Positions 20,341 through 29,226 of a stretch of DNA of 44,939 nucleotides are shown piece by piece. Origin of the DNA: Chloroflexota bacterium. GTDB taxonomy: Bacteria; Chloroflexota; Anaerolineae; Anaerolineales; UBA11579. The stretch spans positions 1 to 44,939 of the forward strand of contig JAMCZK010000020.1 of assembly GCA_023485685.1 (NCBI GenBank). Direction: 5' to 3'. The notes beneath the pieces were generated by a model, which was not told where the DNA came from, did not search any database, and saw only the letters and a list, made by a program, of their open reading frames with translations. A program made the translations under genes and the position numbers. Within the stretch, counting starts at the first letter, position 1; each line of letters starts with the position of its first letter.

Positions 20341-20428
20341 AACTATCAGAAGCTATCAAATTTCAGCGATCAGCTATCAGCAGTCAGCTAGCTCTAAGCT
20401 ATAAGCTGTAAGCCGTAAGTTGAAAACC
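20341..20428. repeat. Gene-free heptad (YAGCNNT) array
   Basis: Seven-base periodicity: CAGCGAT, CAGCTAT, CAGCAGT, CAGCTAG from 20364, then the inverted form AGCTATA, AGCTGTA, AGCCGTA from 20397. It ends in GAAAACCA, like the AAAACCAGAA block in front of the two four-helix-bundle genes. The segment 20351-20370 recurs at 24213-24231 with one base missing. Confidence 0.6.
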
Positions 20429-20461: not shown

Positions 20462-20583
20462 AGATTTCCCCTTGCTTCGCTCAGGGTCGCAATGACGGAA
20501 TTGGCTTGGGGATTACTTTGCTGCGCTCGCAATGACGAGATTGGCTTGGGGATTGCTTCGGTCCCTTCGCTCCCTCGCAATGG
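20462..20583. repeat. Threefold GCAATGACG-type repeat
   Basis: Three imperfect tandem copies of a ~40-bp unit (GGATT-x-TGCTTCGCTC-x-TCGCAATGACG-x-TTGGCTTGGG) at about 20462-20500, 20501-20540 and 20541-20583. They end directly at the stop codon of the thiolase-fold gene. The same core occurs at 1785-1811. Confidence 0.6.
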
Positions 20584-21745: not shown

Positions 21746-21763
21746 AAATAACCTCTAATCAAA

Positions 21764-21812
21764 TTGGAGATTAGAGACTGGAGATTTGAGATTAGTAATC
21801 TCTAGTCTCCAA
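21764..21812. repeat. Heptad hairpin (TTRGAGA units)
   Basis: Between the synthase and thiolase-fold genes: TTGGAGA, TTAGAGA, CTGGAGA, TTTGAGA, TTAGTAA, then the reverse complements TCTCTAG, TCTCCAA. This is the same 7-base periodicity and inverted layout as the YAGCNNT arrays but with a different word. Confidence 0.6.
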
Positions 21813-22898
21813 TCACTTCATAGTTAATTTTCCACGCATCCGTACGTACTCTGCATAATCGATCTCCGTGCGGCGGGCAATATATTCTTCGGTAGTCGTT
21901 GCCAGCTGTGGCTTGCCTGCAATCTTGTCGGTGACACGCAGTACCATGGCGTCGGAACCGGCGCCGGAGCCGAATGAGACCATCATGATGCGCTCACCGG
22001 GTTTAGCGACATCCAAGATGGCTGTTAAGCCGATGATAGCCGCTCCCGAATACGTATTACCGATGCGCGGCACCAGCAAGCCGGTGGCGATCTGTTCGGG
22101 TTTGAAGCCGAGCATCTGGCCGGCGCGCTGCGGGAATTTTGTGTTGGGCTGGTGAAAGACTGCGTACGCGTAATCTTCGGGTTTGGTGTTCGTCGCTTCG
22201 AACATGGCCTCACCCGCGGAGGTGATGTGTTTGAAGTAAGCCGGCTCGCCGGTGAAGCGCTGTCCGTGTTCAGGATATATTGCGTACTGGCGGCGCCAGA
22301 AATCCGGAGTATCGGTGACAAATGAATATGATGATTCAATTTCCGCCAGCGAGTCATCGCCGGGGCCAATAATGAATGCCGCGCCCCCTGCCCCAGCGGT
22401 GTATTCGAGCGCGTCGCCCGGCCGACCTTGAGCGGTGTCCATTCCGATTGCGAGCGCGTAGCGCGCCATCTGTGAACCCACGAAGCCCATGGCAGCCACC
22501 ATGGCTTCAGTGCCCGCTTTGCAGGCAAACTCCCAATCGGCCGCCTGGGTGCTGGGCACCGCGCCGATAGCTTCGGCGACAATGGTGGATGTGGGCTTCA
22601 CCGCGTAGGGATGCGATTCGGAGCCGACCCAGACGGCGCGCAGATCGCTCGGATTGATCTGGGCGCGGGCCAGCGCGTTGCGCGCCGCTTCGATGGACAT
22701 GGTGGCGACATCTTCGTCGAGACCTGGCACGGATTTTTCTTCGATAGGCAGGCCGCCAGTTCCGTTCGTCCAGATGCGCGCCACTTCACGCGCAGGCAGG
22801 CGGTAGCGCGGTACGTAGGCGCCGTAGCCAACGATACCCACCGGATGCTCCGTTTTTAGAAGGCGGGCGTGTTCGTGGTCGTGATCGTTTTCAGTCAT
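21813..22898 (-). CDS. Hydroxymethylglutaryl-CoA synthase
   Basis: 361 residues, the short form seen in archaea and some bacteria. Catalytic residues are present: Cys126 ([11 protein letters not shown]), His249 ([12 protein letters not shown]) and a conserved Glu region ([12 protein letters not shown]). [15 protein letters not shown] is the usual start of the domain; an extra His/Asp-rich N-terminus of about 18 residues precedes it. The C-terminal [17 protein letters not shown] and [13 protein letters not shown] complete the thiolase-superfamily fold. It condenses acetyl-CoA with acetoacetyl-CoA to HMG-CoA. Its start overlaps the end of the reductase gene by 8 bases, indicating coupled translation. 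Confidence 0.93.
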
Positions 22899-26254: not shown

Positions 26255-26260
26255 TATAAT
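26255..26260 (+). promoter_or_regulatory. -10 element of four-helix-bundle/hppD operon
   Basis: TATAAT on the plus strand. The predicted start of transcription (~26267) coincides with the first base of the heptad array. No good -35 is seen. Confidence 0.4.
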
Positions 26261-26266
26261 CGATGT

Positions 26267-26322
26267 AAGCTGTTAGCTTATAGCTTTTAGCTGTTAGCTC
26301 TTAGCTATTAGCATTTAGCTTA
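26267..26322. repeat. Upstream heptad array of cassette 1
   Basis: Eight consecutive 7-base units: AAGCTGT, TAGCTTA, TAGCTTT, TAGCTGT, TAGCTCT, TAGCTAT, TAGCATT, TAGCTTA. The phase is unbroken over 56 bases. It is followed by TTAAAACCAGAA and the start of the four-helix-bundle gene. Confidence 0.85.
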
Positions 26323-26341
26323 TTAAAACCAGAAGCAAAAA

Positions 26342-26704
26342 ATGAAAGATTTCCGCAAACTGAAGGTTTGGGAGAAAAGCCACCGACTTGCTCTCGCCAT
26401 TTATCAACAAACAGTTGGATTTCCCAAGACTGAGATATACGGTTTGACCTCCCAGATAAGGCGGGCTGCTTCTATCCCGGCCAACATTGCCGAAGGAAGC
26501 GGCCGTGGCAGTGATGCAGAGTTGGCCCGATTTCTTCTAATAGCAATGGGATCAGCTAGTGAGCTAAAATATCATTTGTTCCTTGCCAAAGACCTGGAAT
26601 ATCTCAAAGAACCCGCTTTTCTTACTCTGGAAAAGCAAATTGACGAAGTCCAAAAAATGATTACCGCGTTACACAAGCGTATTAAGCTAACCGCTAATAG
26701 CTAA
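26342..26704 (+). CDS. Four-helix-bundle protein (S23/IVP-Avd family), copy 1
   Basis: 120 residues of the family first seen encoded in intervening sequences of 23S rRNA and related to Avd of diversity-generating retroelements. Family signatures: FRKLKVWEKSHRLALAIY, FPKTEIYGLTSQIRRAA, SIPANIAEGSGRGSDAEL. The protein is a basic helical bundle that in known cases forms a pentameric barrel and binds nucleic acid. It sits between inverted heptad arrays, and the final codons and stop (KLTANS*) are part of the downstream array. Compared with the copy at 28840 it is about 58% identical by eye. It lies just upstream of hppD with only 29 bases between, so it is probably co-transcribed. Its role here is unknown. 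Confidence 0.88.
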   Translation: MKDFRKLKVWEKSHRLALAIYQQTVGFPKTEIYGLTSQIRRAASIPANIAEGSGRGSDAELARFLLIAMGSASELKYHLFLAKDLEYLKEPAFLTLEKQIDEVQKMITALHKRIKLTANS

Positions 26705-26719
26705 AGGCTAATAGCTAGA
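26685..26719. repeat. Downstream heptad array of cassette 1 (inverted)
   Basis: AGCTAAC, CGCTAAT, AGCTAAA, GGCTAAT, AGCTAGA. The reverse complement gives TAGCTAT, TAGCCTT, TAGCTAT, TAGCGGT, TAGCTTA, the same words as the upstream array, so the two arrays are inverted relative to each other. Confidence 0.85.
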
Positions 26720-26733
26720 CCGGAGGTTCGCCT

Positions 26734-27879
26734 ATGGTTCAAGTGAAACAACCCGAAACGCGCCCCATAACTGAAGAGGGCGATTTCCTGCAAATACAAG
26801 CCATCGATCATTTGCATTTCTACGTGGGCAACGCCAAACAAGCCATGTATTACTGGTGGAAAGGCTTTGGATTCAAACCTGTCGCCTATTCCGGCATGGA
26901 AACAGGCAACCGCAAATTCGCGTCGTATGTGCTCGAATCCGGCAAGATCCGCTTCGTGGTGTCGGCGCCCTATTCGCCATCGCACGAGATGGCGGGGCAC
27001 CACCTGACCCACGGTGATGGCGTCAAGGTCATAGCCATTCAAGTGAAGGATGTCGAAGAAGCTTATCGGGCGACGACATCTCGCGGCGGGCAGAGCGCCT
27101 GGGCGCCCCGCGAAGAGAAGGACGAATTCGGCGTGTTGCGCACCTCGGCTATCCACACGTATGGGGAGGTTCTGCATATTTTTGTAGATCGCAGCGGATA
27201 CAAGGGCCCATTTGCGCCGACCTACCAGCCGCTGAACAAAGATGCGGATTCCGCAGGTCTGGCGGTTGTGGACCATATCGTAGGCAATGTGCAGTTGGGC
27301 AAGATGAATCACTGGGTGAATTTTTATCATCGCGTGATGGGTTTCCGGCAACTGCTACATTTCGATGACAAGGACATCAGCACCGAGTATTCAGCGTTGA
27401 TGTCTAAGGTGATGGAAAACGGCAACGGTCGGATCAAATTCCCGATCAACGAACCGGCCGAAGGGAAGAAGAAGAGCCAGATCGAAGAATACCTCGACTA
27501 TTACCTGACACCCGGAGTGCAACACATTGCCATGTCCACCGGTGACATCATCGAAACGGTTACGAAATTGAAGGCCAACGGCATCGAATTCCTGCGCGTG
27601 CCGGATACGTACTACGAGATGCTGCCGGAGCGCGTAGGCGATGTAGTTAAGGAGCCGCTCGACAAGATCAACGAGCTGGGCATCCTGGTCGACAGGGATG
27701 ACGAAGGCTATTTGCTGCAAATTTTCTCGCGCCCTATCCAAGACAGGCCGACTTCATTTATTGAAGTGATCCAGCGCCACGGATCGCGCGGCTTTGGCAA
27801 AGGCAACTTCAAGGCCTTGTTCGAAGCGCTGGAAATGGAACAAGACCGCCGCGGCAACCTGGATCCATACGGCGGATAG
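26734..27879 (+). CDS. hppD: 4-Hydroxyphenylpyruvate dioxygenase
   Basis: 381 residues, two vicinal-oxygen-chelate domains. The iron facial triad is His181 (VVDHIVGNV), His264 (GVQHIAMST) and Glu344 (SFIEVIQRHG), and C-terminal motifs (FGKGNFKALFEALE) match the family. It converts 4-hydroxyphenylpyruvate to homogentisate with O2, the committed step of tyrosine breakdown. A GGAGG ribosome site precedes the ATG just after the heptad array. FAH-family and homogentisate dioxygenase genes follow. The presence of a dioxygenase pathway implies at least microaerobic life. Note that prenyl quinones can also be made from homogentisate, but the catabolic neighbours favour degradation. Confidence 0.96.
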   Translation: MVQVKQPETRPITEEGDFLQIQAIDHLHFYVGNAKQAMYYWWKGFGFKPVAYSGMETGNRKFASYVLESGKIRFVVSAPYSPSHEMAGHHLTHGDGVKVIAIQVKDVEEAYRATTSRGGQSAWAPREEKDEFGVLRTSAIHTYGEVLHIFVDRSGYKGPFAPTYQPLNKDADSAGLAVVDHIVGNVQLGKMNHWVNFYHRVMGFRQLLHFDDKDISTEYSALMSKVMENGNGRIKFPINEPAEGKKKSQIEEYLDYYLTPGVQHIAMSTGDIIETVTKLKANGIEFLRVPDTYYEMLPERVGDVVKEPLDKINELGILVDRDDEGYLLQIFSRPIQDRPTSFIEVIQRHGSRGFGKGNFKALFEALEMEQDRRGNLDPYGG

Positions 27880-28798: not shown

Positions 28799-28833
28799 TA
28801 GCATTCAGCACTCAGTATTCAGCCATCAGCAAA
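28799..28833. repeat. Upstream heptad array of cassette 2
   Basis: TAGCATT, CAGCACT, CAGTATT, CAGCCAT, CAGCAAA, then ACCAGA and the ATG at 28840; the junction AAAACCAGAA is identical to that of cassette 1. It begins right after the stop of the FAH-family gene. Confidence 0.8.
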
Positions 28834-28839
28834 ACCAGA

Positions 28840-29199
28840 ATGAAGGATTTTCGAAAACTACAAGTTTGGCAAAAGAGTCATCACCTAGCTTTGGCAATTT
28901 ATCGCGCGACCAAGGATTTTCCAAAGTCAGAACTGTACAGTCTCACTTCTCAAATGCGACGTTCTGCAACATCTATACCATCCAACATCGCGGAGGGAAG
29001 TGGGAGGGGAAGTGACGCCGATTTGCGCAGAATGCTGCAGATTGCCTTTGGTTCTGCAAGCAAACTGGAATATCAGCTTCTGCTAGCCCAGGAGTTAGAA
29101 TTCATTAATAAAGCCTCATATCAAAAATTAGACGACCAAATAACTGAAATTAAACGCATGCTGTCTTCGCTTATGAAAAAGCTGAAAGCTGACCGCTGA
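28840..29199 (+). CDS. Four-helix-bundle protein (S23/IVP-Avd family), copy 2
   Basis: 119 residues with the same signatures as copy 1 (DFRKLQVWQKSHHLALAIY, SIPSNIAEGSGRGSDADL, GSASKLEYQLLLAQELEF). About 58% identical by eye, so the two are paralogues rather than a recent duplication. The upstream array ends 6 bases before the ATG, and the downstream array encodes the last residues and stop (KLKADR*). It interrupts the tyrosine operon between the FAH-family gene and hmgA, on the same strand and without an apparent terminator, so the operon can still be read through. The ATG lacks a Shine-Dalgarno sequence. Function unknown. Confidence 0.88.
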   Translation: MKDFRKLQVWQKSHHLALAIYRATKDFPKSELYSLTSQMRRSATSIPSNIAEGSGRGSDADLRRMLQIAFGSASKLEYQLLLAQELEFINKASYQKLDDQITEIKRMLSSLMKKLKADR

Positions 29200-29214
29200 T
29201 AGCTGACAGCTAAA
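29180..29214. repeat. Downstream heptad array of cassette 2 (inverted)
   Basis: AGCTGAA, AGCTGAC, CGCTGAT, AGCTGAC, AGCTAAA. The reverse complement is TAGCTGT, CAGCTAT, CAGCGGT, CAGCTTT, CAGCTTT. The stretch AAGCTGACCGCTGATAGCTG matches AAGCTAACCGCTAATAGCTA of cassette 1 except for A/G changes. Confidence 0.85.
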
Positions 29215-29226
29215 AGGAGTTTCGCC

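Follow-up and report, generated by a model that had tools for sequence, protein, structure and literature searches.

Genes of the PF05635 family, annotated as four helix bundle proteins, have no function known to us. In the intergenic DNA of cyanobacteria, tandem 7-mers are known as short tandemly repeated repetitive sequences (STRR). Arrays of one such word, TAACTGA, are known from Beggiatoaceae, cyanobacteria and Bacteroidetes (PMC4679880); a possible mobile repeat-binding protein is raised for them in that paper, whose main text contains none of the terms 'S23', 'IVP' and 'four helix'. In the intervening sequence (IVS) of the Coxiella 23S rRNA, as described in the relevant passages of PMC4990558, tandem heptamers of GACAGAT precede an S23 ORF, their number (two or three) varying by strain, and the ends of the rRNA element pair into a 28-bp stem at which RNase III cuts. 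A sequence-only reading of the locus considered here had supposed that a link between heptad arrays and the S23/IVP family, as one element, was undescribed. This holds for the general link, as no report tying S23 genes generally to inverted heptad arrays was found in the open-licence part of PubMed Central (preprints excluded), but the Coxiella IVS (PMC4990558) is a precursor of it.

The locus lies in a stretch of 44,939 nucleotides (the window) of a Chloroflexota genome of 1.7 Mb and 76% completeness. The -10 box of the hppD operon, TATAAT (26255..26260, + strand), was read in the sequence and likewise precedes hppD in the 12 relatives inspected. It is followed by the left arm of cassette 1, eight inward-pointing TAGCTNT heptads (26266..26321, + strand: TAAGCTG, TTAGCTT, ATAGCTT, TTAGCTG, TTAGCTC, TTAGCTA, TTAGCAT and TTAGCTT), then by an S23/IVP gene of 120 amino acids (26342..26704, + strand; PF05635/TIGR02436, identified by its ORF, profile matches and an AF2 model), and finally by a right arm of five inverted heptads (26684..26718, - strand: AAGCTAA, CCGCTAA, TAGCTAA, AGGCTAA and TAGCTAG). 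The right arm encodes the C-terminus and the stop of the S23 protein, the stop codon lying inside the third unit. Both arrays were read directly and were also detected by TRF and by the period-7 scan, so that the described run of eight heptads in and five out stands. Behind the insertion lies the host gene hppD (4-hydroxyphenylpyruvate dioxygenase, 26734..27879, + strand; TIGR01263, 440.7 bits). Since TATAAT is kept before hppD in the relatives, cassette 1 begins about at the expected transcription start, as had been proposed. It codes for S23 only, with no transposase in the unit, and a comparison of ten neighbouring proteins gave no match to a transposase or reverse transcriptase family. Within the window, Rfam yielded no match at gathering score; the cassette is not inside an rRNA helix but between TATAAT and hppD. 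With rRNA intervening sequences it shares an S23 ORF between complementary ends able to pair, and with STRR the window arrays share their nature of tandem 7-mers in intergenic DNA.

The period-7 scan of the window gave eight arrays against none in one shuffle, the control lags 6, 8, 9 and 10 giving 1, 0, 1 and 0 arrays (1, 0, 0 and 1 in the shuffle). Cassette 2, situated between a FAH-family gene and hmgA, consists of a left arm with the word CAGCANT (28800..28830, + strand), an S23/IVP gene of 119 amino acids (28840..29199, + strand; PF05635, 139 bits; 60% identical to the cassette 1 protein) and a right arm (29178..29216, - strand), both arms being found by TRF and the period-7 scan. The same two methods also detected an S23-less heptad hairpin (TTGGAGA... 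and ...TCTCCAA; 21763..21814, no strand assigned). Elsewhere in the window, two adjoining heptad arrays, both in direct orientation, carry first the word CAGCNAT and then TAAGCNN (20351-20419), and beside them lies a repeated CGCAATGACG-type sequence (approximately 20480-20583).

The cassette 1 protein matches PF05635 with 127.3 bits (cut-off 33.8) and TIGR02436, 'four helix bundle protein', with 121.4 bits (cut-off 24). Its AF2 model (pLDDT 94.8) shows a four-helix fold like that of 2gsc and 2rld, the closest PDB folds (TM 0.89 to 2gsc_B), Avd (4dwl) being further off. Five chains are present in each of the solved S23 homologues 2gsc and 2rld and also in 4dwl, all of which we take to be pentamers in solution. 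The family is under purifying selection: among 19 pairs, the eight with usable dS and a protein identity of at least 73% gave dN/dS values of 0.02-0.10, nine were saturated and one pair of 53% identity gave 0.32; one near-identical pair shows two nonsynonymous and no synonymous changes. PF05635 was found in 48 of 151 genomes sampled across the phylum and in 55 of the 57 genomes of one genus.

The source genome holds 11 PF05635 loci, nearly all with flanking inverted short tandem arrays of differing words, as judged by eye. The arrangement was evaluated on a first set of 142 S23 loci. Of these, 33 came from the genus (counting the source genome), 80 from named genome contigs of many phyla and 29 from the phylum; the second piece (L066) of a broken gene (L052) and duplicates of later loci (L001-L008) were left out. 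Over lags 3 to 16, only lag 7 and its double stand out, lag 7 reaching 2.7-3.9 times the shuffled value, and the excess at lag 8 is small (1.3-1.7 times). An array was called where the run score at lag 7 or 8 reached 9. By this criterion 112 of 141 loci have one upstream and 108 of 140 have one downstream, compared with 21 of the 533 control windows taken from the same loci. Addition of 41 loci from one Chloroflexota genus gave a larger set of 181; short flanks account for the loci dropped (142 to 141 and 140, 183 to 181, and 39 to 38 in the viral set below). In the larger set at least one period-7/8 array was present in 168 of 181 loci and both in 117, the chance level for at least one being about 8% (two windows at the control rate). 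Moreover, the flanks matched in inverted orientation with a z of at least 3 in 148 of the 181, a measure taken against 30 single-base shuffles and not against control windows. Eight of the 13 array-less loci still show this match. Three loci (L154, L172 and L112) have neither an array at score 9 and lag 7 or 8 nor an inverted flank match of z at least 3, and one (L212) has nine-base units, by eye.

A pattern scan of IMG/VR provided 39 putatively viral contigs with an S23 gene (L292-L330), nearly all with arms. As thresholds and word profile had been chosen on the first loci and the viral set was run later with thresholds unchanged, these loci served as a held-out set: at least one array was found in 37 of 38 and both in 29 (controls 7 of 133; four near-duplicates within the 38), with an inverted match in 36 of 38 (30 single-base shuffles, no control windows). 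S23 homologues do not, then, regularly occur without arrays, an outcome that would have told against the element proposed in the sequence-only reading.

The units carry terminal inverted repeats in the form of inverted tandem arrays of a common word. When the unit profile of the left arm was set against that of the right arm in reverse complement, own pairs scored 0.552 against 0.407 for permuted pairs (sd 0.0065, z 22.4, n=99), and the own arms compared in direct orientation scored 0.392. After clustering of the S23 proteins at 60%, 50% and 40%, z was still 19.0, 9.7 and 4.7 (n=50, 19 and 8). The periods of left and right arms also agree, with 99 loci (7,7), 11 loci (8,8) and 9 mixed (Fisher p 5e-9). 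An inverted repeat necessarily matches itself, so the arm match alone only identifies the two arms as the termini of a single element; the unusual feature is the freedom of the word between elements, while it is common to both arms of one.

A common unit profile can nevertheless be written, A-G-(C/T)-T-N-T-N, of which AG is the firm part. The AG polarity is inward in 208 of 232 arms, counted with a profile to which 74 of these loci had themselves contributed. The Coxiella heptamer, written in another frame as AGATGAC, fits this grammar. Word similarity climbs from 0.38 for proteins less than 25% identical to 0.67 for those more than 75% identical (Mantel rho 0.38, 0 of 999 permutations), a correlation that common descent would also produce. 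Five is the most frequent number of units per arm (115 loci; 43 left and 53 right arms), followed by four (23 left, 27 right) and six (17 left, 12 right). The counter needs some 3-4 units and over-counts by one in 1/4 to 1/3 of simulated short arrays; a geometric length distribution gives a mode of 4 and a broader tail.

The unit had also been called symmetric, which is true of word and orientation, but not of the size of the cassette 1 arms (eight against five units); across loci, arm lengths left and right are uncorrelated (rho 0.06) and the order of the units is not clearly mirrored. Mirrored order was considered and not retained, as a p of 0.009 in one shuffling scheme became 0.25 for genomes and 0.09 for viral loci with random frames (the viral test used 33 of 39 loci, without the four near-duplicates, L310 and L329, and 23 passed).

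These arm data bear on the explanation that the unit is an RNA intervening sequence, in which the arms are complementary for the sake of a transcript stem, S23 sits in the loop and RNase III excises the whole as in the 23S rRNA IVS, its removal from the mRNA making the unit harmless to the operons that carry it. The cassette 1 RNA does fold with its two arms paired (z -5.67), the arms covary, and the Coxiella rRNA element provides an example of a stem cut in this way (PMC4990558, in the passages cited above). Every inverted repeat folds with paired arms, however, so that the fold is little proof, and selection for a stem would favour both mirrored unit order and correlated arm lengths, which are hardly or not observed; neither AG polarity nor unit periodicity is needed by a stem. 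We consider this explanation unlikely.

Whether the unit is mobile can be judged at orthologous sites of related genomes. In the hppD leader, from TATAAT to the hppD start, S23 is absent from 10 of 10 other genomes of the same genus and from two further family members. No clear target duplication is seen at this site. In three of the same-genus relatives (L022-L024), a brief run resembling heptads was seen by eye ahead of the hppD box.

The site of cassette 2, between FAH and hmgA, is occupied in 8 of 11 genomes of the same genus, one copy being broken (by eye). The units there carry the words CAGCTNT, CAGCANT or TAAGCNN, and both copies with TAAGCNN belong to a different S23 subtype (by eye). 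Two genomes lacking S23 in this gap (G007 and G004) were examined as clean empty sites and rejected, since they also differ at the end of the FAH gene, which makes the junction unreadable. In the pair L048 (genome G009) and L052 (G010), flanks of about 94% identity enclose different S23 subtypes and words in the same FAH-hmgA gap; the FAH gene end has also diverged between these two genomes.

This orthologous placement in 8 of 11 genomes (one copy broken), together with the purifying selection on S23, is what could be expected if S23 were a conserved host regulator of its own operon, e.g. of tyrosine catabolism, with the arrays as operators. We give this very little probability, since the units come and go and lie beside unrelated genes: pheS-like, ABC-transporter, fatty-acid and leucine genes (by eye), and plasmid transfer and CRISPR genes.

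Among 38 of the 57 genomes of the genus in which 55 carry S23, one ABC-transporter gap is empty in 14, holds S23 units (449-467 bp) in 5, S23-less heptad hairpins (70-102 bp) in 11 and other hairpins in 8, one hairpin family there being of the GTCATTGCGAG type (genomes G254, G222, G231, G223 and G246). Every insertion falls after the stop codon of one gene and ahead of the start codon of its neighbour, and no clear target duplication is seen. A target-site preference was considered for this gap and rejected despite the unrelated hairpins at the same place, since stop and start codons overlap there and selection alone could account for the shared position. More generally, the units that were read follow a stop codon or a promoter and precede the next start codon. 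A hairpin type with nine-base units (ACCACGAAG...CACAAAGGAC) adjoins a pheS-like gene at two further loci (L265 and L266).

Over 200 kb of two genomes of about 97% identity, one of them G168, the S23 units differ at one site only, and no heptad insertions or deletions were found inside the aligned blocks, the larger gaps between them having been read in part. The G168 stretch contains 20 period-7 arrays, at most about four of which lie beside S23. Two candidate empty sites between G168 and G245 were set aside: at L179, with its pheS-like neighbour, the sister genome holds a different hairpin, and for L148 the upstream flank was not found beside it in G245. Both the single S23 difference over 200 kb and the frequent occurrence of elements at the same place in related species count against active transposition.

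Sites on cyanobacterial plasmids are more readily interpreted at the base level. At a first site, the unit is present in three records of conjugative plasmids (Trichormus variabilis ATCC 29413, 0441 and Scytonema NIES-4073), and six plasmids match the joined flanks in one piece with 97.1-97.8% identity; the four of these six that were fetched and read all lack the unit. The empty sequence is AAAAAGTAATTAAC, and the occupied one AAAAAGTAAT-element-GTAATTAAC, from which GTAAT appears as a doubled stretch of 4-5 bp. The same site holds a truncated copy in Nostoc C052 and an S23-less heptad hairpin in Brasilonema pBOCT2. At a second site, on Nostoc plasmids, TTCTA flanks the element on either side and occurs a single time in the empty site. 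Because TTCTA also terminates another copy of the element, the right end of the element may be its source, in which case it would be no duplication. No readable duplication was found at Aulosira plasmid2, at a TraM gene or at a second place on pNsp_c. The cmr operons of Picosynechococcus PCC 7003 and 7002 (90% identity) differ by presence and absence of the unit, the junction not being exact.

Clean empty sites thus exist, one showing a clear duplication of 4-5 bp, another a possible one and the other sites none that is clear, and S23 gene and arrays come and go together as a unit. The earlier proposal of a mobile-element-like unit with array ends is thus supported by the empty hppD leaders and the plasmid site. 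The opposite case, with array and gene at the same place in all relatives and no empty sites, does not apply to these two sites, and is approached at cassette 2 with its 8 of 11 shared.

The same sites bear on the explanation that arrays (STRR-like) or hairpins came first, as a landing pad in which S23 genes settled. S23-less arrays and hairpins are indeed common, as in the 200 kb of G168; S23 is found in a gap where other genomes have heptad hairpins, and the heptad-like stretch upstream of the hppD box in L022-L024 (by eye) could be read in this sense. However, empty sites show no array at the insertion point (14 genomes at the ABC-transporter gap, four plasmids and the hppD leader), and settling within a tandem array predicts direct arms, while it is the inverted comparison which scores higher. 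We rate this order of events as highly improbable, the empty plasmid sites appearing largely to refute it.

A further explanation is that replication slippage and fold-back template switching homogenise the arms, S23 being a passive cargo and the word not being read by the protein. In its favour, near-identical copies differ by whole units, the Scytonema left arm being exactly 14 bases (two heptads) shorter than that of T. variabilis, and Coxiella strains differ by one heptamer (two or three, PMC4990558, as above); the unmirrored unit order fits a promiscuous register, and S23-less hairpins look alike. It leaves unexplained why S23 is almost always within arms and under purifying selection, why AG and its inward polarity are common, and why the word follows the protein, although this last is also expected from common descent. 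Slippage as the whole account seems to us unlikely.

As regards distribution, a clade of six S23 proteins (support 96/84) unites Nitrospinota, Cyanobacteriota, Myxococcota, Pseudomonadota and Actinomycetota, each member having CAGC-type units in at least one arm. A five-phylum clade argues for horizontal spread of S23 between phyla, in a tree of 120 columns in which the bootstrap had not settled and most rows are metagenome bins. One S23 locus with a TAGCTGT left arm and no right arm detected (L127) lies on a contig labelled Candidatus Pacearchaeota archaeon, a label which could be a binning error. The INPHARED phage records gave no tblastn match at 1e-5 to the cassette 2 protein.

Some plasmid copies lie among CRISPR genes. 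On a Picosynechococcus PCC 7003 plasmid (L291), S23 is placed in a type III-B operon between cas10/cmr2 and cmr3, a place without S23 on pAQ6 of PCC 7002; on the Pseudanabaena galeata plasmid pPg_01 (L288) it lies between cas6 and cas4, the nearest arrays having one direction and an inverted array being found further upstream. The name '23S rRNA IVP' occurs in a figure legend of a CRISPR screen (PMC10910872). Such associations may be hitchhiking insertions.

The generality of the arrays, the common arm word and the empty sites point to a small mobile element that ends in tandem arrays and does not itself encode an enzyme. Cassette 1 is probably a copy of such an element, widespread and of about 450 bp, in which two inverted arrays, each of some five copies of a word of 7 (sometimes 8 or 9) bases, enclose an S23/IVP gene.

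How such ends might be recognised is suggested by the five chains of the S23 homologues and the approximately five units per arm, on which a reading of the arms by an S23 pentamer is proposed. The pentamer would read one arm as single-stranded nucleic acid, each subunit taking one unit with its AG, and would thereby mark or pair both ends of its own element. Because the unit encodes no known catalytic domain, cutting and joining would fall to an enzyme acting in trans. Heptad hairpins without S23 would represent non-autonomous versions, and the 23S rRNA intervening sequences copies that landed in rRNA loops. A ring whose subunits each take one AG of a single strand would account for the five units, the tolerance of 7, 8 and 9 bases and the free word. 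TRAP and Hfq offer analogies. The median net charge of S23, only +1, counts against a protein that reads nucleic acid. Tentatively, and with less confidence than in the element itself, we suggest a new class of mobile elements with free-word ends, in which the unit length (7-9), the AG and the inward polarity alone would be fixed. Its ring-shaped S23 readers of tandem-repeat nucleic acid would be pentamers that read some five units in each arm, the word being particular to the lineage, and IVS, STRR and heptad hairpins would be relics, landings or non-autonomous relatives of this one system.

If this were true, PF05635 proteins would be mobile-element proteins and not host genes, ribosomal proteins or operon partners, and a single origin would be given to rRNA intervening sequences, to the heptamers of cyanobacteria and Beggiatoaceae and to the S23 genes in CRISPR operons. 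Moreover, as the word would shift by lineage under a constant geometry, nature would offer a set of matched protein-repeat pairs.

Several known systems resemble the unit in part. MITEs and hairpin insertion elements can be compared with the short hairpin elements that occupy the same ABC-transporter gap, and REP sequences flanking a RAYT gene have a layout analogous to that of arms flanking S23. The ends of MITEs and REPs are fixed sequences of one family, whereas in the unit only the unit length, AG and the polarity are fixed, and no transposase is included. Avd of the diversity-generating retroelements shares the S23 fold, 4dwl chains being among the best PDB matches, and the homology is stated in PMC10053308; the cassette 2 protein reaches only 33.8 bits with the Avd model, far under the cut-off of 80, the cassette 1 protein has no Avd match, and the retroelements differ further by a reverse transcriptase, of which there is none among the ten neighbouring proteins tested here.

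STRR and the TAACTGA arrays of PMC4679880 are likewise intergenic tandem 7-mers scattered over distant phyla, and TAACTGA on the other strand is of AGTTATC type, with the same grammar as the unit arms; that paper treats direct repeats of one word, in contrast to the inverted arms, differing words and enclosed gene of the unit. The 23S rRNA IVS of Coxiella, Leptospira and others has an S23-family ORF, a length of about 430 bp and stem-forming complementary ends, and is called selfish in the part of PMC4990558 that treats it. The unit differs from it by lying between protein genes and not in rRNA, and by having inverted arrays at both ends, with a word differing by element. In view of the Coxiella precursor and the TAACTGA paper, the S23 units are classed with the intervening-sequence elements, with a fair chance that they are more than that.
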